Shown: one piece after another, positions 5,547 to 47,864 of the stretch
Layout of the letters: every line of letters starts with the position of its first letter
How positions within the stretch are numbered: position 1 is the first letter of the stretch
NCBI GenBank assembly: GCA_012516935.1
Contig: JAAYVZ010000243.1
Span: 1-47,864, forward strand
Origin: Holophagae bacterium
GTDB lineage: Bacteria; Acidobacteriota; Thermoanaerobaculia; Thermoanaerobaculales; Thermoanaerobaculaceae
DNA: 47,864 bases
Reading direction: 5' to 3'
Program-made: the position numbers and the translations under genes
The notes under the pieces: generated by a model
Seen by the model: the letters and a program-made list of their open reading frames with translations, nothing else
What the model was told of the DNA's origin: nothing
Database searches by the model: none

Positions 5547-6998
5547 TCACAACACCCGCTCGGTCGCGTTGGCGCGCCTCGTCAGCGCACTGACCAGCAG
5601 CGTCGCCACGGTCGACAGCGCAAATGCCGGGATCAGCTCGTAGATGATCGCGTCGCTCCAGCCCGCCGATTTCCACACGATGGTGACGACGAAGCCGGTG
5701 ATGACGCCCGCCAGCGCCCCCCAACGGGTCACCCACCCCGTGCGCAGCCCCAACAGCAACGGCGGTCCGAACGCCGCTCCCATCCCGGACCACGCGAAAA
5801 GCACGAACCAGAACACGACCCGCACGTCTTGAAGCGCCACGGCGATCGCGGCCAGCCCCAGGACCAGCACGCTCAGGCGTCCCGCGACCACCGAAGCTTT
5901 GCCCGAGCGCGCCACGCCGAACACCTCCTCGAGCAGATCGCGGCTGATCGCCGACGCCGCGACGAGGAGCTGCGAGGAGACCGTGGACATGATGGCGGAG
6001 AGGATCGCCGCCAGCATCACGCCAGCCACGAGTGGGTGCAGCATCTGCCGGGAGAGGAGTGGGAAGAGCTGCTCGGGGTCGCCGCCGCTGGCGAGCTCGG
6101 GCATGAGCAGGCGGCCCGCGAGGCCGAGGAAGCCCGCGCCGTAGAACACGAGCGCCCCCCACACCATGGCGATGACCTGAGTCTGGCGGATTTTCTCGTC
6201 CGAGGCCGCCGCCATGTACCGCGTCAGCACGTGCGGTTGGCCGGGGTAGCCGAGACCGATCCCGACCATGCCGACGACGAAGCCGAGCAGCGCGAATCCC
6301 GACCTACCTCCGGTCACCAGCACGAGCTGGGGGTCGAGCGCCGCCAAGCGCTCGAGCGTCATGCCGTATCCCCCCGCTCTGAGCAGCGCTATGCCCGGCA
6401 TCACCACGAGCGCGAAAACCATCACCATCCCCTGGAAGAAGTCGGTCCAGCTCACCGCCCGGAACCCACCCATGAGGGTGTAAACGATGATGATCACGCC
6501 GCCGATCCAGATCCCCTGCTGGTACGATAGCCCGACGATGGCCTGCATCGCCTTGCCGGTCGCGGTCATCTGTGCGGCCACGTAGCCCCCCAGCGAGAGG
6601 AAGATCACGACCACACTGGCGACCCGCAGCAGGTGCGCGCGGTCGCCGAATCGGCGCACCAGGAGGTCTGGCAGCGTGAGCGCACCGGTGCGGACGCCCT
6701 CCCGGCGCAGCTGCGGGGCCAGCAGGTAGAGGTTGGCCGCGTACCCCATCAGGCACCCCGGGGCGAACCACAGCGCCGAGACACCCGAGACGTAGACCAT
6801 GCCGACCGCCCCGAGCACGACCCAGCCGCTCTCCGAAGAGGCAGTGGACGACACCGCCGTCACCCACGACCCCAGCGAGCGGCCGGCCAGGTAGTAGTCC
6901 TCGCTCGAGCGCGTCAAGCGCGAGGCCGCCCAGCCAATCCCCAGCAAGGTCACCATGTAGACCGCTACGACCGCCGCGATGCTGCCGTCAGCGCCCAT
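5547..6998 (-). CDS. Sodium:solute symporter (SSS family)
   Basis: A 483-residue membrane protein with about 12-13 hydrophobic helices. Early motifs SSEDYYLAGRSLG and SSTASSESGW are typical of the PutP/PanF-like sodium:solute symporter family. It should use the sodium gradient to import a small organic solute; the substrate (proline, pantothenate or another acid) cannot be read from the sequence. ATG 6998 was chosen because GGAGG lies five bases upstream; the frame is open further upstream without a better site. The start overlaps the end of a tiny membrane ORF by 11 bases, implying coupled translation. Confidence 0.9.
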   Translation of the reverse strand: MGADGSIAAVVAVYMVTLLGIGWAASRLTRSSEDYYLAGRSLGSWVTAVSSTASSESGWVVLGAVGMVYVSGVSALWFAPGCLMGYAANLYLLAPQLRREGVRTGALTLPDLLVRRFGDRAHLLRVASVVVIFLSLGGYVAAQMTATGKAMQAIVGLSYQQGIWIGGVIIIVYTLMGGFRAVSWTDFFQGMVMVFALVVMPGIALLRAGGYGMTLERLAALDPQLVLVTGGRSGFALLGFVVGMVGIGLGYPGQPHVLTRYMAAASDEKIRQTQVIAMVWGALVFYGAGFLGLAGRLLMPELASGGDPEQLFPLLSRQMLHPLVAGVMLAAILSAIMSTVSSQLLVAASAISRDLLEEVFGVARSGKASVVAGRLSVLVLGLAAIAVALQDVRVVFWFVLFAWSGMGAAFGPPLLLGLRTGWVTRWGALAGVITGFVVTIVWKSAGWSDAIIYELIPAFALSTVATLLVSALTRRANATERVL

Positions 6999-7098
6999 AC
7001 TTGCCTCCGAGGAAGTAGGCGACGAGAGCAATGACGATCACCACCAGCGGGACCGCAACCAAGAACAAGTGGGTTGCAAGGGGGATTGGCTGGACCAT
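6988..7098 (-). CDS. Small one-helix membrane protein coupled to the symporter
   Basis: A 36-residue ORF opening with GGAGG six bases before ATG 7098. After a short N-terminus (MVQPIPLATH) it is almost entirely hydrophobic, LFLVAVPLVVIVIALVAYFL, then ends GGKYGR: a single membrane helix with a positive tail. Its last 11 bases overlap the start of the symporter gene, and the symporter's own ribosome site lies inside it. Short one-helix partners are known for some sodium symporters, so a subunit or assembly helper is plausible, but no function is shown. Confidence 0.7.
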   Translation of the reverse strand: MVQPIPLATHLFLVAVPLVVIVIALVAYFLGGKYGR

Positions 7099-7237
7099 CG
7101 AGCGCCTCCGGAAACGGCGCTACCCATGATACCTGGTCTGGCACCACCCAACGGCTCCGAGCATCAGCCCCGAGCTCTCACGTTCTGCGGGCGGCTACGG
7201 CCCGCGAAGGAAGGCAACGATGCGCCGCTCGCGCCAC

Positions 7238-8563
7238 CTACCGGGGGCGCCACTCATCCACGAGCACCGGCGCGCCCCAGGCGCCGTCCTGCACGGGCAC
7301 CACCGCAATATCCCAATCGAGCTGGCCGGGCGTGTACCGGGGGACGCGACAGAACACCCACGAGCCGTCGGCTACCGGTGCGGCCTCGAGCAGTGGCCGG
7401 CGCTGCTTGCCCGGTAGGCGCACCTCGCGGACCACCTGGTTTTCAAACAACAACTGACGCTCACCCCGACAGAAGTAGAGAGCAGCTCGGGGTCCGACGC
7501 GCGGGGCGAACTCCGGACCCAGCGTGTTGACGCGGGGCTCCAGGATTTGGCCTTCCTTCCCCGGCTCGCGCAGCCACAGATCCGAGGACTCCGCCTCGTA
7601 CGCCGTCCAGATCAGGTAGTCGAGGGTGGGACCGAAGCGCTGGGCGTCGCCGACGCTCGCACCGCTCGGCAGCATCACCCGCTGGGGGGCTCCCCAGGGC
7701 AGGCGGGCGTCGTCACGTCGAACCTCCCACAGCTCCCGCGTACCGCTGAGCGTCAGCACCTCGACGAGCCCTTCCGTCTCGTTTTGCCTCACCCAGGTGA
7801 AGCGCGCGCTGGCGTCCTCGGGGATGCCGGAAAGTACCACCGGCTGGGGCGGCGCCCACCCGTCTTTCCCGAGCTGGGTGCGATATGGGCGGTACCCACC
7901 CACCGCCCAAGCAGCCGGCGCCGCCTCGCTGCCCATCCCCACTCTGAAAGCGCCCACCGGTGCGGCCTGTACGTCGGGACGCGGAGAGGCGTTGAGCCCA
8001 GCCGCGAAGTACAGGACCTTGCCGCCCTGCAAAGGGATGGGCGACATCTCCAGCCCACCCGAGTTGATCCGCTTCGGATCGCTGGCTCCGATCACCTCCG
8101 CTCCCAGCGTCTCGAGCGACCCGGCAAGGTACCGAACCTGGTAGTCGGAGAACAGGAACAGCTCGGCCGCCGTGGCGAGGAGCCGTTTCGAACCCACCAT
8201 CGCGCTGGTGCCAGCAAGCGGCACCACCGCAACCTCGTGCCCGACCCTGAAGGCATCGATGTCCGTGGGTACCATGTCCACCACGCACAACGAGTCGGAC
8301 GTCACTTTGACGGTGACTTGGAGGTCCTTGCCGAGCTGGGGCACCGGCTTGCCGTCCGCCTTGAGCACGTTGCTCATCGTCTCCGGTAAGCCGGCCACGA
8401 TCTCGACCTCGACTGATTGCGGATCGTTGGCCGCGAGCGCGATCGCGGCAATGCGCCCGAAGATCACGGTATCCGGCTGCGGCACGGGCGTGTCGACGTC
8501 TTGCATCCCGCATCCCGAGATGATCAGCACCATCAGAAGCCCCAGCGTTCCTGACACCCTCAT
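7238..8563 (-). CDS. Lipoprotein of unknown function
   Basis: The 441-residue product starts with a lipoprotein signal peptide (MRVSGTLGLLMVLIISGC, lipid cysteine at 18), so it should be anchored in the cell envelope. The mature part is rich in beta-strand-like segments; the second half has repeated blocks such as LWEVRRDDARLPWGAP and FGPTLDYLIWTA that resemble WD40-like/TolB-type propeller blades. ATG 8563 follows GGAGGAGCGC; an in-frame upstream methionine at 8602 would bury the signal peptide. A TATGAT on the same strand at 8611-8616 may be its -10 element. I do not recognise a named family. Confidence 0.75.
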   Translation of the reverse strand: MRVSGTLGLLMVLIISGCGMQDVDTPVPQPDTVIFGRIAAIALAANDPQSVEVEIVAGLPETMSNVLKADGKPVPQLGKDLQVTVKVTSDSLCVVDMVPTDIDAFRVGHEVAVVPLAGTSAMVGSKRLLATAAELFLFSDYQVRYLAGSLETLGAEVIGASDPKRINSGGLEMSPIPLQGGKVLYFAAGLNASPRPDVQAAPVGAFRVGMGSEAAPAAWAVGGYRPYRTQLGKDGWAPPQPVVLSGIPEDASARFTWVRQNETEGLVEVLTLSGTRELWEVRRDDARLPWGAPQRVMLPSGASVGDAQRFGPTLDYLIWTAYEAESSDLWLREPGKEGQILEPRVNTLGPEFAPRVGPRAALYFCRGERQLLFENQVVREVRLPGKQRRPLLEAAPVADGSWVFCRVPRYTPGQLDWDIAVVPVQDGAWGAPVLVDEWRPR

Positions 8564-37546: not shown

Positions 37547-38515
37547 TCACCCTCCGATCTGCGACATCCGGCGCCCCAGCTCCACCGTCGTGTCTGCCAT
37601 GCGCCACGGCTTCTCGCGCATCGCCCGTCCGAGCAGCATCCGCAGCGCCTCGGGGTCGGGCTGTGGGCGCAGCGCCGGCTTGAGGTCGATCTCCTGCGGC
37701 GCCAGCAGGCACAGCCGGAGTCGACCGTCGGCGGTGAGCCGCAGACGATTGCACCAGTGGCAGAAGTGATCGCTCACCGGCGTGATGCAGGCGATCCGCC
37801 CGGGAGCGCCAGGGCGCCGGAACGCCCGCCCAGCCGGCCCAGCCCCCGGCAGGGGATCGACCTCTTCCCACGGCCCGAACGCTTGGAGCCTCGCCACCAC
37901 GGTGTCTGCCGGCACAAAGTAGCGATGCGGCGCGACCGGCCCAATCGGCATGTACTCGATGAAACGCACCTCGACCGGAAGCTGCTCCGACAGCGCCACG
38001 AACGGCGCTGGGTCATCGTTGACTCCCCGCAGCAACACGACGTTCACCTTCACCGGCGAGAAGCCGTGCGCGAACGCCGCTGCAAGCCCAGCCAAGGCGT
38101 CCTCGAGCGCACCGCCGCGCGTGAGGTGGCGGTACGTCGCCGGATCGAGGCTCGGCAGCCCGATGTTGACCCGCGCCAGGCCGGCCTCGCGCAGTGCCGG
38201 CGCGTACCGCGGGAGCAGCGTGCCGTTCGTGGTGAGCGTGACCTCGCGCACCCCGTCGACCGCTCGTAGCTGGCGCACGAGCTCGGGGCAGCCGAGCCGG
38301 GCCAGCGGCTCACCCCCGGTGAGCCGCACGGTACCGATCCCCTCGCCCGCTGCCACAGCCACGAACGCGGCGATCTCCTCGAAGCGCAGCACATCGTGGT
38401 GCGAGACCTCCGGCACACCGGCCGCCGGCATGCAGTAGCGGCAGCGTAGGTTGCACCGGTCGGTCACCGAGACGCGCAGGTAATCGATGCGGCGGGCGGG
38501 TGGGTCGTGCAACAT
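37547..38515 (-). CDS. moaA: GTP 3',8-cyclase (radical SAM)
   Basis: MoaA starts molybdenum cofactor synthesis by cyclising GTP. The 322-residue protein has the N-terminal cluster motif CNLRCRYC (C21, C25, C28), TVRLTGGEPL, the C-terminal second cluster (FCHWCNRLRLTADG with a later cysteine) and the conserved final GG of the chain. ATG 38515 overlaps the moeA stop by one base, so the two are coupled. Confidence 0.96.
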   Translation of the reverse strand: MLHDPPARRIDYLRVSVTDRCNLRCRYCMPAAGVPEVSHHDVLRFEEIAAFVAVAAGEGIGTVRLTGGEPLARLGCPELVRQLRAVDGVREVTLTTNGTLLPRYAPALREAGLARVNIGLPSLDPATYRHLTRGGALEDALAGLAAAFAHGFSPVKVNVVLLRGVNDDPAPFVALSEQLPVEVRFIEYMPIGPVAPHRYFVPADTVVARLQAFGPWEEVDPLPGAGPAGRAFRRPGAPGRIACITPVSDHFCHWCNRLRLTADGRLRLCLLAPQEIDLKPALRPQPDPEALRMLLGRAMREKPWRMADTTVELGRRMSQIGG

Positions 38516-39744
38516 CAGCGATCCTCGGGCAGCTCCGTCAGGTGCACGAGCACGTCCCCACCCGGCAGCACTCCCTGGCTCTCGCCGGTGACAACGGCCA
38601 GTGCGTTCGCCCTCACCATCGACGAGAGGACTCCTGATCCCTGCGGCCCGGTTGAGGTTACGACCAGCCGGCTGCCCTCCTCGCGTGCCACCACCCGCAG
38701 GAAATGGGTCCGCAGATCACCGCTTTCTTTCGCAAACCCGTCGACCAGCGCGGCGGTTCGTACGGGCCGGTGCAACAGCCTGTGGCCCATCATCTTCCGC
38801 AGCGCGGGCCGGACGTACTCCTCGAAGCACACCATACACGACACCGGGTTGCCCGGCAGCCCCAACACCAGCCTGCCGTTCCACTCCCAAAACGCCATCG
38901 GCCGACCGGGTTTCTGCCGTACGCCCCAGAAAACCTGTCGCGCACCCAGCTCCTCCAGCACCGCCCTGACGTGGTCCCACTCCCCCACCGAGACCCCGCC
39001 GTTGGTGACGATCACGTCGGCTGCATCCCACGCCTGCCCGAGCGCGACCCGCACCGCCTCGTGGGTGTCACGGACCCGAGGCAACGGCACCGGCGTCGCA
39101 CCCACCGCCCTCACCTGCGCACACAGTGAGTGGATGTTGGCGTCGCGGATCTGGCCTGGGCCGGGCATGTGTCCGGCCTCCACCAGCTCGTCACCGGTCG
39201 TGACCACCGCAACTACCGGCGCCCGGACCACCCGCACCCGGACGCTGCCGATCGCCGCCAGCAACCCGAGCTCGGCCGGCCGCAGCACCTGGCCGCGCGC
39301 CGCCACCCGTTCGCCCGCGCGTACGTCTTCGCCGGCCTCGCGAACGTGGCTGCCCGGTCGCACCGGACGAAGCACCTGCACGGCGCTGCCGGAGCCGGCG
39401 GTGTGCTCGACCGGTACCACCGCGTCCGCACCTGCCGGCATCTGCGCCCCGGTCATGATCCGGACGCCGGTCCCCGGCCTCACGCGGACAGACACCGGTG
39501 AGCCGGCCGGCTGGTCAGCGAGCACCCGTATCTCGACCGGGTCGTGTGCGCTGGCCCCGGCCACGTCGCTCGCGCGCATGGCAAACCCATCCATCGCCGA
39601 GTTGGAGAACGGTGGTAGGTTTTCGCGGGCAACCGCGTCCTCGGCCAGCACCCGCCCCAACGCCTCGTCCAGATCGCGCTCCTCCGCCGGGAGCGGGTTG
39701 GCGCGCTCCAGGATGGCTGCCAACGCTTCGTTCACGCTCAGCAT
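38515..39744 (-). CDS. moeA: Molybdopterin molybdenumtransferase
   Basis: MoeA inserts molybdate (or tungstate) into adenylated molybdopterin. The 409-residue protein shows PPFSNSAMDGFAM, GTGVRIMTGAQMPAGADAVV, VAVVTTGDELV, VIVTNGGVSVGEWD and LGLPGNPVSCMV. Domains run in the usual order with a C-terminal beta barrel. Its start overlaps the stop of the ATPase gene by one base (TGATG). Confidence 0.96.
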   Translation of the reverse strand: MLSVNEALAAILERANPLPAEERDLDEALGRVLAEDAVARENLPPFSNSAMDGFAMRASDVAGASAHDPVEIRVLADQPAGSPVSVRVRPGTGVRIMTGAQMPAGADAVVPVEHTAGSGSAVQVLRPVRPGSHVREAGEDVRAGERVAARGQVLRPAELGLLAAIGSVRVRVVRAPVVAVVTTGDELVEAGHMPGPGQIRDANIHSLCAQVRAVGATPVPLPRVRDTHEAVRVALGQAWDAADVIVTNGGVSVGEWDHVRAVLEELGARQVFWGVRQKPGRPMAFWEWNGRLVLGLPGNPVSCMVCFEEYVRPALRKMMGHRLLHRPVRTAALVDGFAKESGDLRTHFLRVVAREEGSRLVVTSTGPQGSGVLSSMVRANALAVVTGESQGVLPGGDVLVHLTELPEDR

Positions 39745-40826
39745 CAGCCTGCCTCCGCAATGAGGTGCACCGCAGTGGCCTTGACTGCGAGCCACACATC
39801 GAGGTCCGGGACCAGCCCCAGATCCTCGGCCGAGCGCCGCGTCACCAGCGCCTCGAGCCTCACCCCGCAGGCCACGGTCACCCTCGTTGTCGCCCCCTGT
39901 GGGAGAACCGCCAGCACCTTTCCGGTCATCCGGTTGCGCGCCGAGTGGTGGGTGGCGCCGCCGCTTCGACCGAGCACCACGTCCTCGGGGCGGATGCACG
40001 CCAGCACCGAGGCCCCGACCGGAAGGTCAGCGACCGCTTCCACCTCGACGCCGCCCAAGTCCACCGACACGATGCCTTCCCGCACCGCGGTGACGCGACC
40101 CCGCAGCGTGTTGCCGGTCCCCACAAACCCCGCCACGAACGGTGTAGCCGGCTGGTAGAAGACCTCCGATGGCCGTCCCACCTGCGCGAGACGTCCACCC
40201 TCGAGCACCGCCACTCGGTCCGCTACCGCCAGCGCCTCGGCCTGGTCGTGCGTGACCCACAGGCAACCCACCCCGTGCCGCCGCAAAATCGTGGTCAGGT
40301 CGCTGCGGAGCCGCTGGCGGATCGGCTCGTCGAGCGACGCGAGCGGCTCGTCGAGCAGCAGCAGCTCAGGCGCCGGCGCCAGCGCTCGAGCCAGCGCCGT
40401 GCGCTGCGCCTCGCCGCCCGAAAGCGAAGCCGGCCGCCGTGCTGCCAGGGAGGCGATGCCGAACAGCTCCAGCAACGCACTCACCCGCCGCTTGCGCTCG
40501 GCTCCATCCACGCGCCGTACCTCGAGGCCATACCCGACGTTTTCGGCCACCGTCCCGGCGAACAGCAGTGGGTCTTGGAAAGCCATGGCGATCTGCCGCC
40601 GCAGCTCGAGCGGCGCTGGCCAGCCCACCGCCTCGCCACGCCAGCGCACCGTCCCCCTCAGCGGGCGCTCGAGCAGGTGAGCCACCCGCAGCAGCGTGCT
40701 CTTGCCCGCCCCGGTGGGACCCAGCACCGCGACGATCTCGCCGGGCTCGACCTCCAGCCACTCGAGATCGAGGATCCTCCGCCCACCCACCTCGACCGCC
40801 ACCCCCTCGAGGGCCAACAGGCTCAT
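39744..40826 (-). CDS. tupC: Molybdate/tungstate ABC transporter ATP-binding protein
   Basis: The 360-residue ATPase has Walker A GPTGAGKST (36-44), signature LSGGEAQ, Walker B LLLLDEP and switch histidine VTHDQAEA. A C-terminal region (from about 230) resembles a TOBE-type oxyanion-sensing domain. It should drive import through the overlapping permease. Tungstate is favoured by the permease type; molybdate cannot be excluded. Next to moeA-moaA-moaC, so it supplies metal for the cofactor made there. Confidence 0.85.
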   Translation of the reverse strand: MSLLALEGVAVEVGGRRILDLEWLEVEPGEIVAVLGPTGAGKSTLLRVAHLLERPLRGTVRWRGEAVGWPAPLELRRQIAMAFQDPLLFAGTVAENVGYGLEVRRVDGAERKRRVSALLELFGIASLAARRPASLSGGEAQRTALARALAPAPELLLLDEPLASLDEPIRQRLRSDLTTILRRHGVGCLWVTHDQAEALAVADRVAVLEGGRLAQVGRPSEVFYQPATPFVAGFVGTGNTLRGRVTAVREGIVSVDLGGVEVEAVADLPVGASVLACIRPEDVVLGRSGGATHHSARNRMTGKVLAVLPQGATTRVTVACGVRLEALVTRRSAEDLGLVPDLDVWLAVKATAVHLIAEAG

Positions 40827-41467
40827 ACCCGCCCCCGCTGTTGCACCCAGGTGAACAGCCAGTTCACCCCGAGGGCAATCAGCAGCAGCACCACGCTGAG
40901 CGCGATCGCCAAGCCGAAGTTGCCTTGGCGGGTCTCGAGCACGATGGCGGTGGTCATGACCCGCGTCTCACCACGGATGTTGCCGCCAACCATCATCACC
41001 GCCCCGACCTCGGAGATGATGCTCCCGAAGCCAGCCGCGAGCGCCGCCACCAACGACAGCCGCGCCTCCCGCACGAGCTTCCAGTAAAGCTGGCTCGGGG
41101 AGGCGCCGAGTGAGAGGATCTGCAGCCGCAGCCGCGCATCGAGCCCTTGGATCGCCGCCAGCGTGACGCCGACCACCAACGGCCAGGCGATCACCACCTG
41201 GGCGAGGATCATCGCCGTCGGGGTGTACAGCAGCTCGAGCGACCCGAGCGGACCAGCGCGGGCCAGCAGCAGGAAGACGACGAGCCCGACCACCACCGGG
41301 GGCAGCCCCATGCCGGTATTGACGAGCGTCACCAGCAGCTGCCGCCCCGGGAACCGGTGCAGCCCGAGGAAAATCCCAACCGGCACGCCGAGCACCATCG
41401 AGACGACGATGGCGACGCCCGAGACGACGAGCGACAGGGCGATAACCTGCCAGAGCTCCGGTCCCAT
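40823..41467 (-). CDS. tupB: Tungstate-type ABC transporter permease
   Basis: A 214-residue protein with five to six membrane helices. MGLPPVVVGLVVFLLL and LLYTPTAMILAQVVIAWPL match what I know of TupB-type permeases, and the coupling-helix motif is EVGAVMMVGGNIRGETRVM. It overlaps the ATPase gene by 4 bases. The binding protein TupA is not visible in the 137 bases upstream nor elsewhere in the window. Confidence 0.85.
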   Translation of the reverse strand: MGPELWQVIALSLVVSGVAIVVSMVLGVPVGIFLGLHRFPGRQLLVTLVNTGMGLPPVVVGLVVFLLLARAGPLGSLELLYTPTAMILAQVVIAWPLVVGVTLAAIQGLDARLRLQILSLGASPSQLYWKLVREARLSLVAALAAGFGSIISEVGAVMMVGGNIRGETRVMTTAIVLETRQGNFGLAIALSVVLLLIALGVNWLFTWVQQRGRV

Positions 41468-41604
41468 CGGACGAAACCTAGCACGCCGCCCACGCTGCCA
41501 ACAAGAAACCGAGCGGGGATCGGCTCACCGATCGCCCCACCCGGCGCTCACCCTCGACGCCGCAGCCACGATCCCGCGAGCGGCTGCCGACCAGGGGCCC
41601 CCCA

Positions 41605-42660
41605 TCACCTTCTCTTTGGCGACAGGTACTCGCCGGCAGTGCGACGGAGACCCTCGTCGAGGCCGACGCGTGGCGCGTAGCCGAGCGCCTCGCGCACGCG
41701 TGTGAGATCGGCGAGCGAGTCACGCACGTCGCCGGGACGTGGCGGCGCGTAAACCGGCGTCGGTGCCCCCCCACACACCGCAGCGATGCGCGCTGCCAGC
41801 TCGTTGACCGACGTGCGAACGCCCGCCGCCACGTTATAGGACCGGCCGCACGCCGCCCTTGGAGCCCCGGCCGCGAGCAGGTTCGCCTCGACCACGTTCT
41901 CCACGAAGGTGAAGTCACGGCTCTGCCCGCCGTCACCGTAGATCACCGGTGCCCGACCGCGCGTCGCCGCGGCAAAAAAGCGCGGGATCACCGCCGCGTA
42001 CGGCCCCGCGGGATCCTGCCGCGGGCCAAAGACGTTGAAGTAGCGCAAACCGACGATCTGCATCCCGAAACAGCGGGTGAAGATGTCGGCGAGCTCCTCG
42101 GCCATGGTTTTGGAGAGCGCGTACGGCGAGAGCGGACGCCCCTCCTCGCCCTCACGCTTGGGCAGCCGGAGCGAGTCGCCGTACACGCTCGACGACGATG
42201 CGAATACGACCCGCCCGACGCCAGCGTCGCGCGCCGCAGCGAAGACGTTGGCGGTGCCCGAAACGTTCACCGCCAGGCTGGTTGCCGGGTCCTCCATCGA
42301 CCGTGGCACCGACCCCAGCGCTGCCTGGTGATACACGACCGCCGGCCTCGGGAGCTCGATCCCGGCGATCGGCTCGAGCCCGCACGCCGCCCGGCAAGTC
42401 GTCGCCGCACGGATGTCGCCCACCAGAACGGTCACCCGTTCGCCAGCGATGACCTGCGGCTGCGACACACCCGACTCGGTGCGCGCCGTGGCTACCTCGC
42501 CCAGCAGGTGGCGCAGGTTGTCGAGCCGCCCCGTCGCCAGGTTGTCGAGCACCACCACCCGCGCTCCCGCCTCGACCAGCGCATCCACCAGGTGCGACCC
42601 GATGAACCCGGCCCCACCCGTCACCAGTGCTGTCACGCGCTCGCTATCCGCCATCGGCAC
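41605..42660 (-). CDS. NAD-dependent sugar-nucleotide epimerase/dehydratase
   Basis: A 351-residue extended short-chain dehydrogenase: TGGAGFIGSHLVDALVEAG for NAD binding, VVFASSSSVYGD, and the catalytic SPYALSK. YFNVFGPRQDPAG and YGDGGQSRDFTFVENVV are typical of WbpP/GalE-like UDP-sugar C4-epimerases. It likely makes a sugar nucleotide for surface polysaccharide. GTG 42660 is chosen because GGGAGGAG lies seven bases upstream; ATG 42654 is the alternative. It follows the ThiF-like gene by 14 bases. Confidence 0.87.
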   Translation of the reverse strand: MPMADSERVTALVTGGAGFIGSHLVDALVEAGARVVVLDNLATGRLDNLRHLLGEVATARTESGVSQPQVIAGERVTVLVGDIRAATTCRAACGLEPIAGIELPRPAVVYHQAALGSVPRSMEDPATSLAVNVSGTANVFAAARDAGVGRVVFASSSSVYGDSLRLPKREGEEGRPLSPYALSKTMAEELADIFTRCFGMQIVGLRYFNVFGPRQDPAGPYAAVIPRFFAAATRGRAPVIYGDGGQSRDFTFVENVVEANLLAAGAPRAACGRSYNVAAGVRTSVNELAARIAAVCGGAPTPVYAPPRPGDVRDSLADLTRVREALGYAPRVGLDEGLRRTAGEYLSPKRR

Positions 42661-42674
42661 CCATGCTCCTCCCG

Positions 42675-43709
42675 TCAAACACCCAGCAGCCGGGCGGCGG
42701 CGGCGCGCGCCGTGGCGATGTCCCCGGTGCCTTTGACAACGATCCGACCGTCGGCGAACAGCGTCAGCTCGTGCTCGCCGGTGCGAAGCCGCACCAGGTG
42801 CTCGCCGTGCACCACCTCGCCATGGCGACGGATACGGGCCGCGATCGCCTGCAGGTCCGGTCGTTCCCGGCCTTCCGATCGCAGCATCACGGCGTTCCGA
42901 CCGCACAGCACCGCCGCCGGCGGCAGCGCTGTGTCCAGAAACTCGAACCGCCGCTTCACACAGCAGAGGCAGTGATTGGCCGCCGGATCGTAGGCGAGCT
43001 CGACCCGGTCACACCGACCGTTCCAGACATCCGCGACCATCATCACCGCCGGTCGCGGCGCCTCGCGCGTCACGAGCCAGCGCAGCGCCATCCCGACCTG
43101 AAGCGCGGCCGTGAGGTGAGTGGCCGACCCCAGCACCCCAACGGCATCACAGGTGGGCGCTGCCCCGGGCTCGGGCCGCTGGGGGTACAGGCACCGCAGG
43201 CACGGCGTTTGTCCTGGCACGACGAGCATCGCCATCCCCGAGGCGGCGACGCACGCTCCGTACACCCAAGGCAGCCCGCGCTCGACGCACGCATCGTTGA
43301 GCAAGTACCGCCCCTCGAAGGAATCGAACCCGTCGACCACCAGGTCCACGTCCGCCGTGAGCGCACGTATGTTGGCCGGCGTGATGTCGGCCACGATCGG
43401 CTCCACCGCGACCTCGTGATTGACATCGGCGAGGCGTTCCGCTGCTGCCACCGCCTTGGGCCGCGCCAGCCGCACGTCGGCCTCCGAAAACAGCGCCTGC
43501 CGCTGCAGGTTGGACAGCTCCACCACGTCGCGGTCGACGATGCGCAAAAAACCCGCGCCGGCCCGTGCGAGCAGCGATGCCGACACCGTCCCGAGCCCCC
43601 CGCACCCCACCATCAACACCCGCGCTGCAGCGATGCGTGCCTGGCCGTCGACCCCGATCGGGGCGAACAGCGCCTGCCGCGAGTACCTGCCGTCCAGCAT
43701 GCGCGCCAT
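42675..43709 (-). CDS. MoeB/ThiF-family adenylyltransferase
   Basis: An E1-like enzyme that adenylates the C-terminal glycine of a small sulfur-carrier protein (MoaD or ThiS). The 344-residue product has SRQALFAPIGVDGQ, VLMVGCGGLG for ATP, VELSNLQRQALF, VDGFDSFEGRYLLND, and two zinc cysteine pairs (PCLRC, CLCC). The C-terminal extension with LFADGRIVVKGTGD is found in longer family members. No carrier gene is in the window. The nearby moa/moe cluster makes a MoaD partner likely. The start, ATG 43709 or 43700, is uncertain. Confidence 0.87.
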   Translation of the reverse strand: MARMLDGRYSRQALFAPIGVDGQARIAAARVLMVGCGGLGTVSASLLARAGAGFLRIVDRDVVELSNLQRQALFSEADVRLARPKAVAAAERLADVNHEVAVEPIVADITPANIRALTADVDLVVDGFDSFEGRYLLNDACVERGLPWVYGACVAASGMAMLVVPGQTPCLRCLYPQRPEPGAAPTCDAVGVLGSATHLTAALQVGMALRWLVTREAPRPAVMMVADVWNGRCDRVELAYDPAANHCLCCVKRRFEFLDTALPPAAVLCGRNAVMLRSEGRERPDLQAIAARIRRHGEVVHGEHLVRLRTGEHELTLFADGRIVVKGTGDIATARAAAARLLGV

Positions 43710-43885
43710 TGTGACCCGCAATCGCCCCGCGGTCCATATCACGTGACCTCGTCTTGGGCCTTCGTGGCGGCCGGTGGCCGACCCCCAGAGCCGCAGCCGT
43801 CATCGCTGCGGAAAGCAGCCTCTGCCTGCCGTCGTCACCGTCGTCGGCGACCCTCACCCGGTCCGCGACCACGGCAGGGCGCGGG

Positions 43886-44644
43886 TCAAGGCCCGAGCCC
43901 AGACCCGGTGCGGGGCCTGGACGGCGAGAGCAGGGCGGAGCGGGTGACAGCCACGTCGTCGGTGAGGAGGGCGTCGACGCCGAGCTGGCGGTACCAGTCC
44001 AGACGCGGCTCCGGCTCGGGGTCGAGCGGACAGACCCACAGGCCTTGGGCGCGTGCTGCAGCCATGTAGTCGGGGTTGGCCGCCATCGCCTGCGGAACCG
44101 TACCGATGCCGTTGCCAGCGAAGCGCGGCTGGGGACCGTACTCCTCGATCTTGGCGATCCACACCCGTGAGTCGGAGCGGCGCGCAGCCCACAGCAGCGC
44201 CTCCTCGAAGCCGAGGAGCATCACGGTACCGGCCGCGACCCTGTCCTCGATCGCGGCCAGCAGCAGTCGCGCCGCCTCGGGAGCCCCGAAATGCGGGTCC
44301 TTGAGCTCGAGCGCCAGCCCGACGCTCGCCGGCACCGCAGCGAGCAGTTGGGCGAGCGTGGGAATTGGGTCGGAGACACCGAACGACCCGTGATCGGAGC
44401 GCCACACGCGCGCCTGCCTGACCTCGGCGAGTAGGAGCTCCGGGATCGCGCCAGCGCGGTCGGTTACCCGCTCGAGGGTGCGATCATGGTGGCAGACGAT
44501 GGCACCGTCGGCGGTCAACCACAAATCGGTCTCGAGGACGTCGGCACCCTCCTCGACGGCCTGCCGGAAACCGACCAGCGTGTTCTCGGGCAAGCGCTTC
44601 GGGACGCCGCGGTGGGCGATGAGGCGGGGGCTCCAGAGACTCAT
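43886..44644 (-). CDS. Glycerophosphodiester phosphodiesterase
   Basis: GDPD enzymes release glycerol-3-phosphate from deacylated phospholipids. The 252-residue TIM-barrel protein has IAHRG (H11) and ENT (E20), ETDLWLTADG (E38, D40), the general acid HHDRTL (H52/H53), and ALELKDPH. It has no signal peptide, so it should be cytoplasmic. Its start overlaps the stop of the SDR gene (ATGA). Overlap with pterin-type genes is likely only transcriptional convenience. Confidence 0.9.
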   Translation of the reverse strand: MSLWSPRLIAHRGVPKRLPENTLVGFRQAVEEGADVLETDLWLTADGAIVCHHDRTLERVTDRAGAIPELLLAEVRQARVWRSDHGSFGVSDPIPTLAQLLAAVPASVGLALELKDPHFGAPEAARLLLAAIEDRVAAGTVMLLGFEEALLWAARRSDSRVWIAKIEEYGPQPRFAGNGIGTVPQAMAANPDYMAAARAQGLWVCPLDPEPEPRLDWYRQLGVDALLTDDVAVTRSALLSPSRPRTGSGLGP

Positions 44645-45333
44645 AGCGTCCCCGACACGTGGCCCACGGTGAGCCCCTCGACCAGCACCGCGGGCGGCCG
44701 CCCGAGTGCGTAGGCAACCGCTTCAGCCACCTCGGCCGGGGCCAGCATTCGCTCGCGCGGCCAATCGCCCGGCACCGAGCTCCACAGCGCGCTGGCGGTG
44801 GCCGCGGGGTAGACGTTGACCACCCGCACGCCGCGCCCGCGCAGCTCAGCGCGCAGGCACTGCGAGAGCCCCTCGAGGGCGAACTTGGCGGCGCAGTACG
44901 CACCCCAGCCTGGGAACCCCTGGCGTGCCGCCACCGACAGCACGTGCACGATCACGGCACCCGCTTCGAGCCGCGGCAGCAGCGCCTGGGTGAGAAGGAA
45001 CGGGGCCGTGACTCCCAGCTCGAGGCTTTGCCGCCACTCCGCAATCGAGATCTGCTCGAACGGCTTGACCACCGCGCTGCCAGCGTTGTGCACGAGGGCG
45101 AAAAGCGGCCCTTCGCCCCCAACCTCGGCAGTCTGGCGCACGCCTTCCGGGGTGCAAAGGTCGCCGGTGACGGTGCGGACCGCCGCTCCCCGGCGGACGG
45201 CCTCGCTCGCCGCAGCCGTGAGCGCCGCCTCGTCCCGCCCGTGGAGGATCAGCTCGCGGCCGGGCTCGGCCAGCCGCACCGCGATCGCCCGTCCGATGCC
45301 ACGGCTGGCGCCGGTGACGAGAAGGCGTTCCAT
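44641..45333 (-). CDS. Short-chain dehydrogenase/reductase
   Basis: A 230-residue classical SDR: TGASRGIG (7-14) for NAD(P), NAG in VHNAGSA, catalytic S133, Y146 and K150 (YCAAK). It has no diagnostic substrate motif. It is translationally coupled to the upstream PTPS-type gene (one-base TGATG overlap), which makes a sepiapterin-reductase-like role in reduced pterin synthesis plausible; this is inference from context only. Confidence 0.88.
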   Translation of the reverse strand: MERLLVTGASRGIGRAIAVRLAEPGRELILHGRDEAALTAAASEAVRRGAAVRTVTGDLCTPEGVRQTAEVGGEGPLFALVHNAGSAVVKPFEQISIAEWRQSLELGVTAPFLLTQALLPRLEAGAVIVHVLSVAARQGFPGWGAYCAAKFALEGLSQCLRAELRGRGVRVVNVYPAATASALWSSVPGDWPRERMLAPAEVAEAVAYALGRPPAVLVEGLTVGHVSGTL

Positions 45334-46559
45334 CAGCGTGCCCCCGCCTCGCCCCGCAACGTGAACCGGTTGTTCGGCGTCTCGAAGATGCGGAGCCGCA
45401 CCAGCCGCTCCTCGAGCCTCTCGTATAGCTGCGGCCACAGCGTCAAGGCGATGTTCTCGCCGGTCGAGGGCCGGGCACGGAACGCCTCCACCTCGCGGTC
45501 GAGGTGGCGTCCATCGAGCCTCGCCAGGACCTCCTCGAGCCCCTCGGTGAAGCGGTCGAGTGGGAAAACGATGCCGGTCCGGTCATTGATCGGGTTGGCG
45601 ACCGTCGCCTGGACGGTGTAGCGGTGGCCGTGCCCGTTGGGGTTGGCGCACTTTCCGAACACCTGACGGTTCCGTTCCTCGGAGAACGACGCCACCCGCA
45701 GACAGTGGGCGGCCGAGAACGTCCGCTCGAGCCCGAGGTACCCCCGCTCGCCGTCGTACTCGGCAAAGAAGTGCGGCATCTCGTGCAGCCGCACGCGGGC
45801 GATCGGCAGGTGTGGCCAGAGGTAGACGAAGATGAACCGGGCCAGGCACTCGCTGGTGATCGGCTGGCGGGCCAGCATCGGCACCTCGAGGTTGAGGTTG
45901 CGGTGGTCGAGCATCTCGTGCAGCTCGCCCAGCAGCCGGCCGACCAGGCCGTAGCTCGCGACCAGCCCGGACTCGCGGTCGAGCGGACCGGCGAGCGTCA
46001 CCCGCAGCCGGTAGCCGTGCCCGTGCCCGAGCGGCGACGCGGCGCGGCCGAACAGTGCCTCGTTTTCGGCCTCGCTGAGGTACGGCGAGCGGGTCACGCG
46101 AGCGGCGGAGAACTCCAGCCACCAGTCGCGCTCGACCCGCCCGTCCGCGTAGGCCGTCGCGGCCGTCGCGGCCGACTCCGCGAGGTGGCAGGCCACCACC
46201 GAGACACCGAGCTCGGCGCATGCAGCTTGCCCCCGGCTCAGGAGCTCGCGCGCCACCAGCTCCGGGGTCGGAGGTAGATGGTCGAACGGCGGCGTGTCGA
46301 GGTTCAGAAAAGCATGGTCGAACGAGGACTCCACCACCGGCTCGAAAGCGGCTTTGACCGCCGTGAGGTTCACGAGCATGCCGGTGACCGGGTCGGGCTC
46401 GCCGGCGAGCACCAGGTGCGCGGTGTAGTTCTCGCCGCTCCCCCACTGGCGCTCGAATCCGGTACCGTACGTCTCGTGGTTGCGGGAGGCGCTCCAGTCG
46501 GCCCGTGCGAGACGCCGGGAGGCCGAGAAGGCAAACCGACGGTTGGCGGTCATCAGCAT
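45333..46559 (-). CDS. Triplicated 6-pyruvoyltetrahydropterin synthase-like protein
   Basis: A 408-residue protein of three tandem PTPS/QueD-type domains (about 4-138, 146-268, 275-402); ordinary enzymes have one domain of 120-150 residues. Domain 3 keeps the zinc histidines (FSAAH, H285; NGHGH, H310 and H312) and the catalytic cysteine C304, but its Asp-His dyad is changed to LDGRH. Domain 2 keeps HGH (179-181) and LDH (218-219) but has SAAR for SAAH and no cysteine. Domain 1 has lost the zinc ligands (R15, GSGENY) but keeps DH at 81-82. ATG 46559 follows GGAGG by seven bases. Confidence 0.87.
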   Translation of the reverse strand: MLMTANRRFAFSASRRLARADWSASRNHETYGTGFERQWGSGENYTAHLVLAGEPDPVTGMLVNLTAVKAAFEPVVESSFDHAFLNLDTPPFDHLPPTPELVARELLSRGQAACAELGVSVVACHLAESAATAATAYADGRVERDWWLEFSAARVTRSPYLSEAENEALFGRAASPLGHGHGYRLRVTLAGPLDRESGLVASYGLVGRLLGELHEMLDHRNLNLEVPMLARQPITSECLARFIFVYLWPHLPIARVRLHEMPHFFAEYDGERGYLGLERTFSAAHCLRVASFSEERNRQVFGKCANPNGHGHRYTVQATVANPINDRTGIVFPLDRFTEGLEEVLARLDGRHLDREVEAFRARPSTGENIALTLWPQLYERLEERLVRLRIFETPNNRFTLRGEAGAR

Positions 46560-46628: not shown

Positions 46629-47864
46629 CTAGGGTACCAGCACCGGCACCGTGGTCGGGTCGCCCGTCTCGTTGTCCACCACCGAGCCGTACGCCCAGGC
46701 GCGGCAACCGGCCGTGAGCACCTCGACGACGGCGTACCCGAGATCGCCAGGACCCGCACCCAGCTCAACGAGCACGCGGTCGATCTGCTGCCAGCGGCCG
46801 CCGGCGATGTCGAGCTCGCGGGCCGAGCCGACCGGCTCGCCATCGCCGTTCCGTAGCCCCACCCGCACCCGGCAGCTCCCGGCGGTGAGCACGACCACGC
46901 CAAGGTTCGACCGGAACCTCTCGTTCTCCCTCAGCATCGGCACGATGCCGCGCTGTCCCGCGGTTAGGCCGTCTCCGGCACCGAGAGCCGGATAGCTCTG
47001 GCCAAAGGTGCGGTCCGGAGACGGCGCGTTGTAGGTCCGGGAGGTGACCGCGAGCGGACCGCTCGCCGCCAGGTGCAGCACGCCCTTGCTGCTCGCGCCG
47101 GCCGGGGCGCCCAGCCACGACACGAGCAGGTCATGCCACTCCCGCGTCTCGCCGCCACCGAGCGTGGCCACGCCGGAGCGCGAGGCGCCGGAGACCGCGT
47201 CGTAGAACGTCGCCGCCACGTCGACCTGGGCGGAGCCCGGGTTGACCGCCGCCAGGTCGGTACGCCAGTTGGTGCCGGCCGCGCCCCCTGCGTGTGCGAC
47301 CGACGGCACGACGTACTGGTGCGACTCACCGGGTCCGGTCCCACCGTCCCAGCCGGCCAGGCGCGCCAGCAGCCACCACAGGGCACCGCCCTTGAGCACG
47401 CAGTTGAGCCGCTCGGAGTGCGCGCAGTCGCCGCACAGCCCCGCGGCCTGAGCCTGCCAGGCCTGGGGATGCGCGTCCATCCACTCAGAGGCCCAGTTGC
47501 CGTCGTTCCAGGGGTTGCCGTCGCCGTTGGCGTCGTACTCGCAGCCATCGGTGGCGAACCGCGCCAGGTAGTCGACGGCGCCGTCGGGGTCGTAGCTCTC
47601 GATGTCGGCGAAGTCGAACAGCACCCTGTCGTGGCTCGCACACCACGCCCGGATCTGCTGGTTGCGCTGGTGGAGGTTGCCGGCCGTGCCGGAGCCGTCG
47701 AGGTGCCCGGTGATGTACACGAAGCGCACCCCCGGGTACTTTCGCTCCAGCCCCGCCATCGCACCGAGATACGCGTCGATGCCCGCGACCGTGTTGTCGC
47801 TCACGCCGCCGCACCACGACCACATCACCAAGTTGCGGTCGTTGCCGGCGCGCGCCCGCGCCCC
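46629..47864 (-). CDS. Secreted protein, C-terminal part (runs off window)
   Basis: The frame is open to the window edge, so the N-terminus is missing; 411 residues are visible. The first part (WSWCGG, FVYITGHLDGSG, VLFDFADIESYDPDG) resembles an SGNH-hydrolase-like or related alpha/beta domain with several cysteines, suggesting export. The rest, from about 195, is a beta-rich module (TNWRTDLAAVNPGSAQVDV, GGGETREWHDLLVSWLG, WAYGSVVDNETGDPTTVPV) of a kind I associate with secreted proteins of Thermoanaerobaculia-like Acidobacteriota. An enzymatic role is not established. Confidence 0.7.
   Translation of the reverse strand, partial: GARARAGNDRNLVMWSWCGGVSDNTVAGIDAYLGAMAGLERKYPGVRFVYITGHLDGSGTAGNLHQRNQQIRAWCASHDRVLFDFADIESYDPDGAVDYLARFATDGCEYDANGDGNPWNDGNWASEWMDAHPQAWQAQAAGLCGDCAHSERLNCVLKGGALWWLLARLAGWDGGTGPGESHQYVVPSVAHAGGAAGTNWRTDLAAVNPGSAQVDVAATFYDAVSGASRSGVATLGGGETREWHDLLVSWLGAPAGASSKGVLHLAASGPLAVTSRTYNAPSPDRTFGQSYPALGAGDGLTAGQRGIVPMLRENERFRSNLGVVVLTAGSCRVRVGLRNGDGEPVGSARELDIAGGRWQQIDRVLVELGAGPGDLGYAVVEVLTAGCRAWAYGSVVDNETGDPTTVPVLVP

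Follow-up and report, generated by a model that had tools for sequence, protein, structure and literature searches.

How, if at all, can a PTPS work when its catalytic residues are dealt out among three domains of one chain? The question is raised by a triple-domain PTPS gene at 45333..46559 on the minus strand of the window (the whole 47,864-nucleotide stretch of Holophagae bacterium DNA analysed here). The gene runs from an ATG start to a TGA stop and encodes 408 aa, in which Pfam finds three matches to PF01242 (PTPS; E = 9.6e-61 for the whole protein), bearing out the three tandem PTPS-like domains read by a first-pass annotation; taken singly, the domains match solved PTPS structures in Foldseek (TM about 0.9 to 2g64, 3i2b, and 1gtq), which places them in the PTPS fold family. 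Specifically, i) domain 1 (46140..46559, minus strand; residues 1-140), a putative helper, lacks the Zn ligands and the Cys, reading R/G/S/E at the aligned Zn/Cys positions, and keeps Asp81-His82; ii) domain 2 (45747..46139, minus strand; residues 141-271), likewise a putative helper, reads R/A/H/H, with the first His replaced by Arg and the Cys by Ala, and keeps HGH, Asp218-His219, and Glu260; and iii) domain 3 (45336..45746, minus strand; residues 272-408), the putative catalytic part, reads H/C/H/H and carries His285, His310, His312, Cys304, and Glu393, its dyad being Asp349-Gly350. Every residue number behind the first-pass annotation was checked and found correct: the Zn histidines and Cys304 occur in domain 3 only, the domain 3 dyad is altered, and domains 1 and 2 have lost the Cys and at least one Zn ligand but keep Asp-His. 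A pterin-anchoring Glu is present in domain 2 (E260) and domain 3 (E393), and the alignment leaves ambiguous whether E128 of domain 1 corresponds to it. The spacing from C304 to H310 in domain 3 is CX5HGH, as in rat and other mammalian PTPS.

We searched for further triples in a 297-genome sample of the phylum and in 149 genomes of the class, many of the assemblies being incomplete. In the 149 class genomes there are five triples of full length, every one from the window's family: that of the window (G000) and those of G384, G386, G391, and G383, which are respectively 82%, 61%, 59%, and 48% identical to the window's protein. No triple could be found outside this family in either the phylum sample or the class genomes, and a contig scan returned Bacteroidota and Acidobacteriaceae gene pairs and zero triples. 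All five proteins confine the Cys and the complete Zn site to domain 3, as is expected of a single domain of biopterin-type PTPS (PTPS-II), keep the domain 3 Glu, and retain Asp-His in both domain 1 and domain 2; the dyad of PTPS-II is therefore present at residue level in the putative assembly (D81-H82 and D218-H219 in the window's protein), although in the window's protein the domain that holds the Cys has Asp-Gly in its place. Aligning the homologues, a check proposed by the first-pass annotation, reveals a split that is conserved and residues that are not lost at random.

The domain 3 dyad itself is less uniform, reading DG in G000, DH in G384 and G386, DR in G391, and QM in G383, so that its alteration, though true of the window's protein, varies within the subfamily: the dyad is intact in two of the triples. 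Since these two still have Asp-His there, the loss would be recent and was possibly tolerated for another reason, a point against a divided triad; the domain 3 dyad appears to have been released from constraint, with the dyads of domains 1 and 2 held. Between G000 and G384, dN/dS is about 0.17-0.31, and purifying selection is of similar strength in the three domains. Because the split is conserved in all five proteins and dN is well below dS in each domain, the losses reflect neither chance nor decay. Thus a decaying duplicate heading for loss, which several missing catalytic residues and the absence of the gene from most family members might suggest, is very improbable and largely refuted by conservation: the frame is intact in all five genomes, which span four genera, with 48-82% identity to the window's protein, and residue loss is non-random.

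The same partition recurs in other architectures, and this recurrence, together with the similar purifying selection on all domains, argues that the split exceeds chance. In the fused doubles of family f25 (5/5 genomes), domain 1 has H-x-H-H and DH without Cys or Glu, and domain 2 has HCHH and Glu, with QG or SG replacing DH; a separate fused double in G005 has K in place of the Cys in domain 1 and DC as the dyad of domain 2. Families f5, f8, and f12 have a separate gene for each half (types A and B), the two lying on different contigs. Type B keeps the Cys, three His, and Glu in 16/16 and has lost Asp-His in 15/16 (altered dyads read DC, DR, ER, NR, or DF; the dyad is intact in G410 only). 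Type A has the motif H/R-x-Y-H together with DH (15/15), GHGH having become GYGH in 15/15 and a Zn ligand having been lost, with Cys in 0/15 and Glu in none of the 14 that are readable. Type A genes (cut-off E <= 1e-48) occur in 16 genomes, all within f5, f8, and f12, and are found in 13 of 15 genomes with a broken B dyad versus 1 of 11 compared genomes whose PTPS keeps the dyad (Fisher p = 1.7e-4, relatedness ignored); G407 (96% complete) and G412 (75% complete) have B without DH, yet no A was found in either.

Adjacent gene pairs differ in degree. In Acidobacteriaceae-like pairs Zn and Cys are present in each gene, and the dyad is lost from the second gene in 7/22 and from the first in 0/22, which may represent an earlier stage of the partition. 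The assignment of the sampled phylum to Acidobacteriota is inferred from the way its gene pairs group with named Acidobacteriaceae loci. Both genes are complete in the Bacteroidota pairs; we considered and rejected these as fused proteins, because they are two adjacent genes, each complete. Adjacent complete PTPS pairs are also found in Chitinophagaceae and relatives (L035-L079), several of them in-frame with a single stop between, and such in-frame pairs are a possible precursor of the fused forms. Among 116 domains compared, 57 keep both Cys and DH, 31 are Cys-less, 28 are DH-less, and none lacks both; DH changes about 10 times on the domain tree (118 columns), where domains 1 and 2 lie on long branches and their placement is not firm. 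Family f2 has a further PTPS-like paralogue (L229-L236) without the catalytic Cys and without the Asp-His dyad, with an H-x-H pair (HSH, HNH, HLH, or HRH) and a C-terminal end reading VWEGPxNxVD. Since Asp-His is readily lost from type B and from a third PTPS-like paralogue, its retention by the helpers points to use rather than structural need. We conclude that, as far as residues can tell, the triple is one case of a broader helper/catalytic division, other cases being fused doubles and unlinked genes.

In the rat PTPS structure of Nar et al. 1994, a single subunit reportedly provides the Zn ligands, Cys42, and Glu133, and a different one provides His89, which is said to lie near the trimer-trimer interface and to come from across it; the barrel is reportedly held by pairing of the N- and C-terminal strands of neighbouring subunits. 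Types A and B would divide these residues in exactly this way. PTPS is a head-to-head dimer of trimers in which three monomers contribute to each site (PMC7546909; PMC4790348), and the title of Burgisser 1995, as cited in PMC2229834 and PMC7546909, speaks of an "intersubunit catalytic triad". We think it probable that the triple is a biopterin-type PTPS whose triad is divided between catalytic and helper parts, in the covalent order helper-helper-catalytic, to give a composite site. Domain 3 would be the catalytic part, binding Zn, holding the pterin through Glu393, and providing the catalytic Cys304; domains 1 and 2 would be helpers without chemistry of their own, donating Asp-His to the domain 3 site and occupying the remaining positions of a three-domain T-fold ring in which beta4 of each domain would pair with beta1 of the next.

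A structural model is consistent with the strand pairing of such a ring. As an alignment of all single-domain relatives with the window's protein (P0001) piled onto domain 3, we chose a small alignment of in-frame gene pairs, giving AlphaFold2 P0001 and seven in-frame Bacteroidota gene pairs (8 sequences), with domain 1 covered by P0001 alone. The prediction, which the first-pass annotation had called for, places three T-folds in one chain (mean pLDDT 85.5, pTM 0.85), with a confident domain arrangement. Strands at 132-137 and 142-154 are separated by a four-residue turn, and likewise those at 264-268 and 273-285, so that in the model a turn of about 4 residues links beta4 of one domain to beta1 of its successor; this agrees with neighbour-to-neighbour strand pairing in the PTPS barrel, the predicted turn replacing the intersubunit gap.

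Whether the composite site would close within one chain or between two is a separate question. The proposal of a covalent pseudo-trimer with a divided site is well supported by the split in 5/5 triples and by the pTM of 0.85, but the site need not close in one chain. In a single-chain arrangement the Asp-His of a neighbouring domain would face Cys304 within the same pseudo-trimer ring. Such an arrangement has a parallel in another T-fold enzyme, bimodular QueF, whose two domains complete a split site inside a single chain (PMC5372742), and the confident packing predicted for one chain would suit such closure. Against single-chain closure stand the head-to-head dimer of trimers with its three-monomer sites, the reported position of the dyad His across the trimer-trimer interface in rat, and the difficulty that two domain types cannot alternate evenly around a three-membered ring, although A-B doubles and unlinked A and B genes share the partition; we regard it as an unlikely though serious alternative. 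We favour instead an Asp-His that reaches the domain 3 site from the opposing chain, and the helper Asp-His would probably come from a second chain because the rat structure is said to put the dyad His across the interface between trimers. Two chains would then stack head to head into a pseudo-hexamer in which two sites, not six, are live; each of these would combine the Zn, Cys, and Glu of domain 3 with a helper Asp-His, most likely one donated by the other chain. Were the His to come from the opposite trimer, sites would form reciprocal pairs, and B facing A would give one live and one dead site, leaving the B dyad free to decay; in the two-chain pseudo-hexamer, domain 3 would then lie opposite a helper domain (1 or 2) of the second chain, not another domain 3. 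To our knowledge, an architecture with two live sites and a 2:1 pseudo-hexamer is undescribed for any PTPS.

Alternatively, domains 1 and 2 could be structural filler around a self-sufficient domain 3, with Asp349 and, for example, His352 replacing the dyad. H352, three residues past Asp349, is kept in 5/5 triples and Asp349 in 4/5, and H352 might substitute for the domain 3 dyad His. It is without equivalent, however, in the f5 B genes and in f25 domain 2, and DH is held in both helpers of 5/5 triples though it decays where unneeded (type B, the third paralogue); we consider filler improbable.

The genomic context bears on the reaction that the composite enzyme may catalyse. Directly downstream of the PTPS gene lies an SDR gene (44641..45333, minus strand) encoding a candidate sepiapterin-reductase-like partner, its ATG overlapping the PTPS stop as TGATG, and an SDR homologue follows the triple at 5/5 loci, overlapping or within about 10 bases. 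The nearest solved structures of the SDR are not sepiapterin reductases, the Chlorobium sepiapterin reductase ranking ninth and being distantly similar. FolE was found in 5/5 triple genomes, and an aromatic amino acid hydroxylase (PF00351) in 4/5 versus 0/12 family members without the triple, the sole triple genome lacking it being G384 (assembly 81% complete); in G386, G391, and G383 the hydroxylase lies within 4 kb of the triple. The linkage to SDR and hydroxylase that marks PTPS-II is therefore seen here, with the SDR a candidate as regards its substrate. In the PTPS-II pathway GTP is converted to dihydroneopterin triphosphate, then to pyruvoyl-tetrahydropterin, and then to a reduced pterin (PMC5041015). 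The combination of SDR, FolE, and hydroxylase supports a tetrahydrobiopterin-like pathway, in which the PTPS product would be handed on to the coupled SDR, giving the hydroxylase a cofactor that resembles tetrahydrobiopterin.

Some of these hydroxylases differ in length: L141 (about 6609-7412) and L142 (6052-7815; 587 aa) are long, with an extra C-terminal half, and convergent to the PTPS-SDR unit, and the window's genome has a short hydroxylase of 274 aa (L219) away from the triple. Family f7 (e.g., G108 and G184) has one weakly scoring PTPS domain per genome, despite an aromatic amino acid hydroxylase.

Other neighbours are less constant. A GDPD-family phosphodiesterase gene (43886..44644, minus strand), which overlaps the SDR stop by 4 bases, is conserved at the triple locus in G384 only. 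At 37547-43742 (minus strand) the window has a Mo/W cofactor cluster of MoaA, MoeA, an ABC ATPase and permease related to tungstate/molybdate uptake, and a ThiF/MoeB-like gene, with a sugar epimerase gene inside it; we rejected Mo-cofactor genes as context of the triple, as none turned up beside the other triples in the regions compared. A 411-aa open frame without a Pfam or NCBIfam match (46629-47864, minus strand) runs past the window end, and its counterpart in G384, 78% identical, lies directly upstream of the triple.

That the triple is instead a non-catalytic pterin-binding or regulatory protein, much as the first-pass annotation's other suggestion of a new pterin-binding protein would have it, might be argued from its two dead sites out of three and from the Thr/Glu pterin-anchor regions partly retained in domains 1 and 2. 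Retention of Zn, Cys, and Glu by domain 3 in 5/5, purifying selection, an adjacent SDR gene in 5/5, and hydroxylase co-occurrence argue otherwise, as does the finding of just one further PTPS-family gene (L001) in the window's genome, a separate single-domain member of another clade; we regard this as quite unlikely.

It is conceivable, though here we lean slightly against our own generalization, that PTPS repeatedly became an obligate hetero-assembly of a catalytic subunit and a pseudoenzyme helper giving only Asp-His across the trimer-trimer interface, the triple fixing a 2:1 ratio of helper to catalytic parts and two live sites. If true, this would show how symmetry can break in a homohexameric enzyme: as its triad bridges subunits from the outset, each paralogue is free to drop the half it does not need, and the pattern of sequence loss then tells to which half of the site a residue belongs. 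Complete pairs, diverged adjacent pairs, unlinked helper and catalytic genes, fused doubles, and fused triples would form a testable series of steps. We wish to stress that annotation would label both halves "PTPS" or "QueD", and that a helper alone is, by its residues, unlikely to be an active enzyme.

QueD (6-carboxytetrahydropterin synthase, PTPS-I), which shares the Pfam family and the fold, has the shorter spacing CX3HGH, unlike the CX5HGH of domain 3. We rejected a QueD identity on this spacing and on the absence of queuosine genes among the scanned neighbours of the triple; the chain does pass the NCBIfam QueD cut-off, with a score added up over its three domains. A literature search that covered few PTPS structural papers turned up no heteromeric or tandem PTPS. 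Two other T-fold enzymes resemble the triple in layout. Uricase (urate oxidase), with which the chain aligns in part, over 285 Foldseek columns, also has tandem T-folds in one chain, but has two domains per chain and a different reaction. Bimodular QueF, a nitrile reductase, arose by a T-fold duplication that split the Cys, Glu, and motif between two domains (PMC5372742), and so shares duplicated tandem T-folds and divided catalytic residues with the triple; with two domains, another chemistry, and no ring tunnel, it is a precedent for the principle and not for the family. The closest likeness is to rat and human PTPS-II, in fold, Zn-His3, Cys, Glu anchor, and CX5HGH (all in domain 3), and in SDR and hydroxylase context. 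The known enzymes, however, are homohexamers of identical single-domain subunits with six complete sites, whereas the triple has three fused non-identical domains, one putatively live Zn/Cys set per chain, and the dyad elsewhere. By its sequence, then, the triple belongs to the PTPS fold family and is PTPS-II-like, departing from it in the residue set of each domain and in subunit identity.
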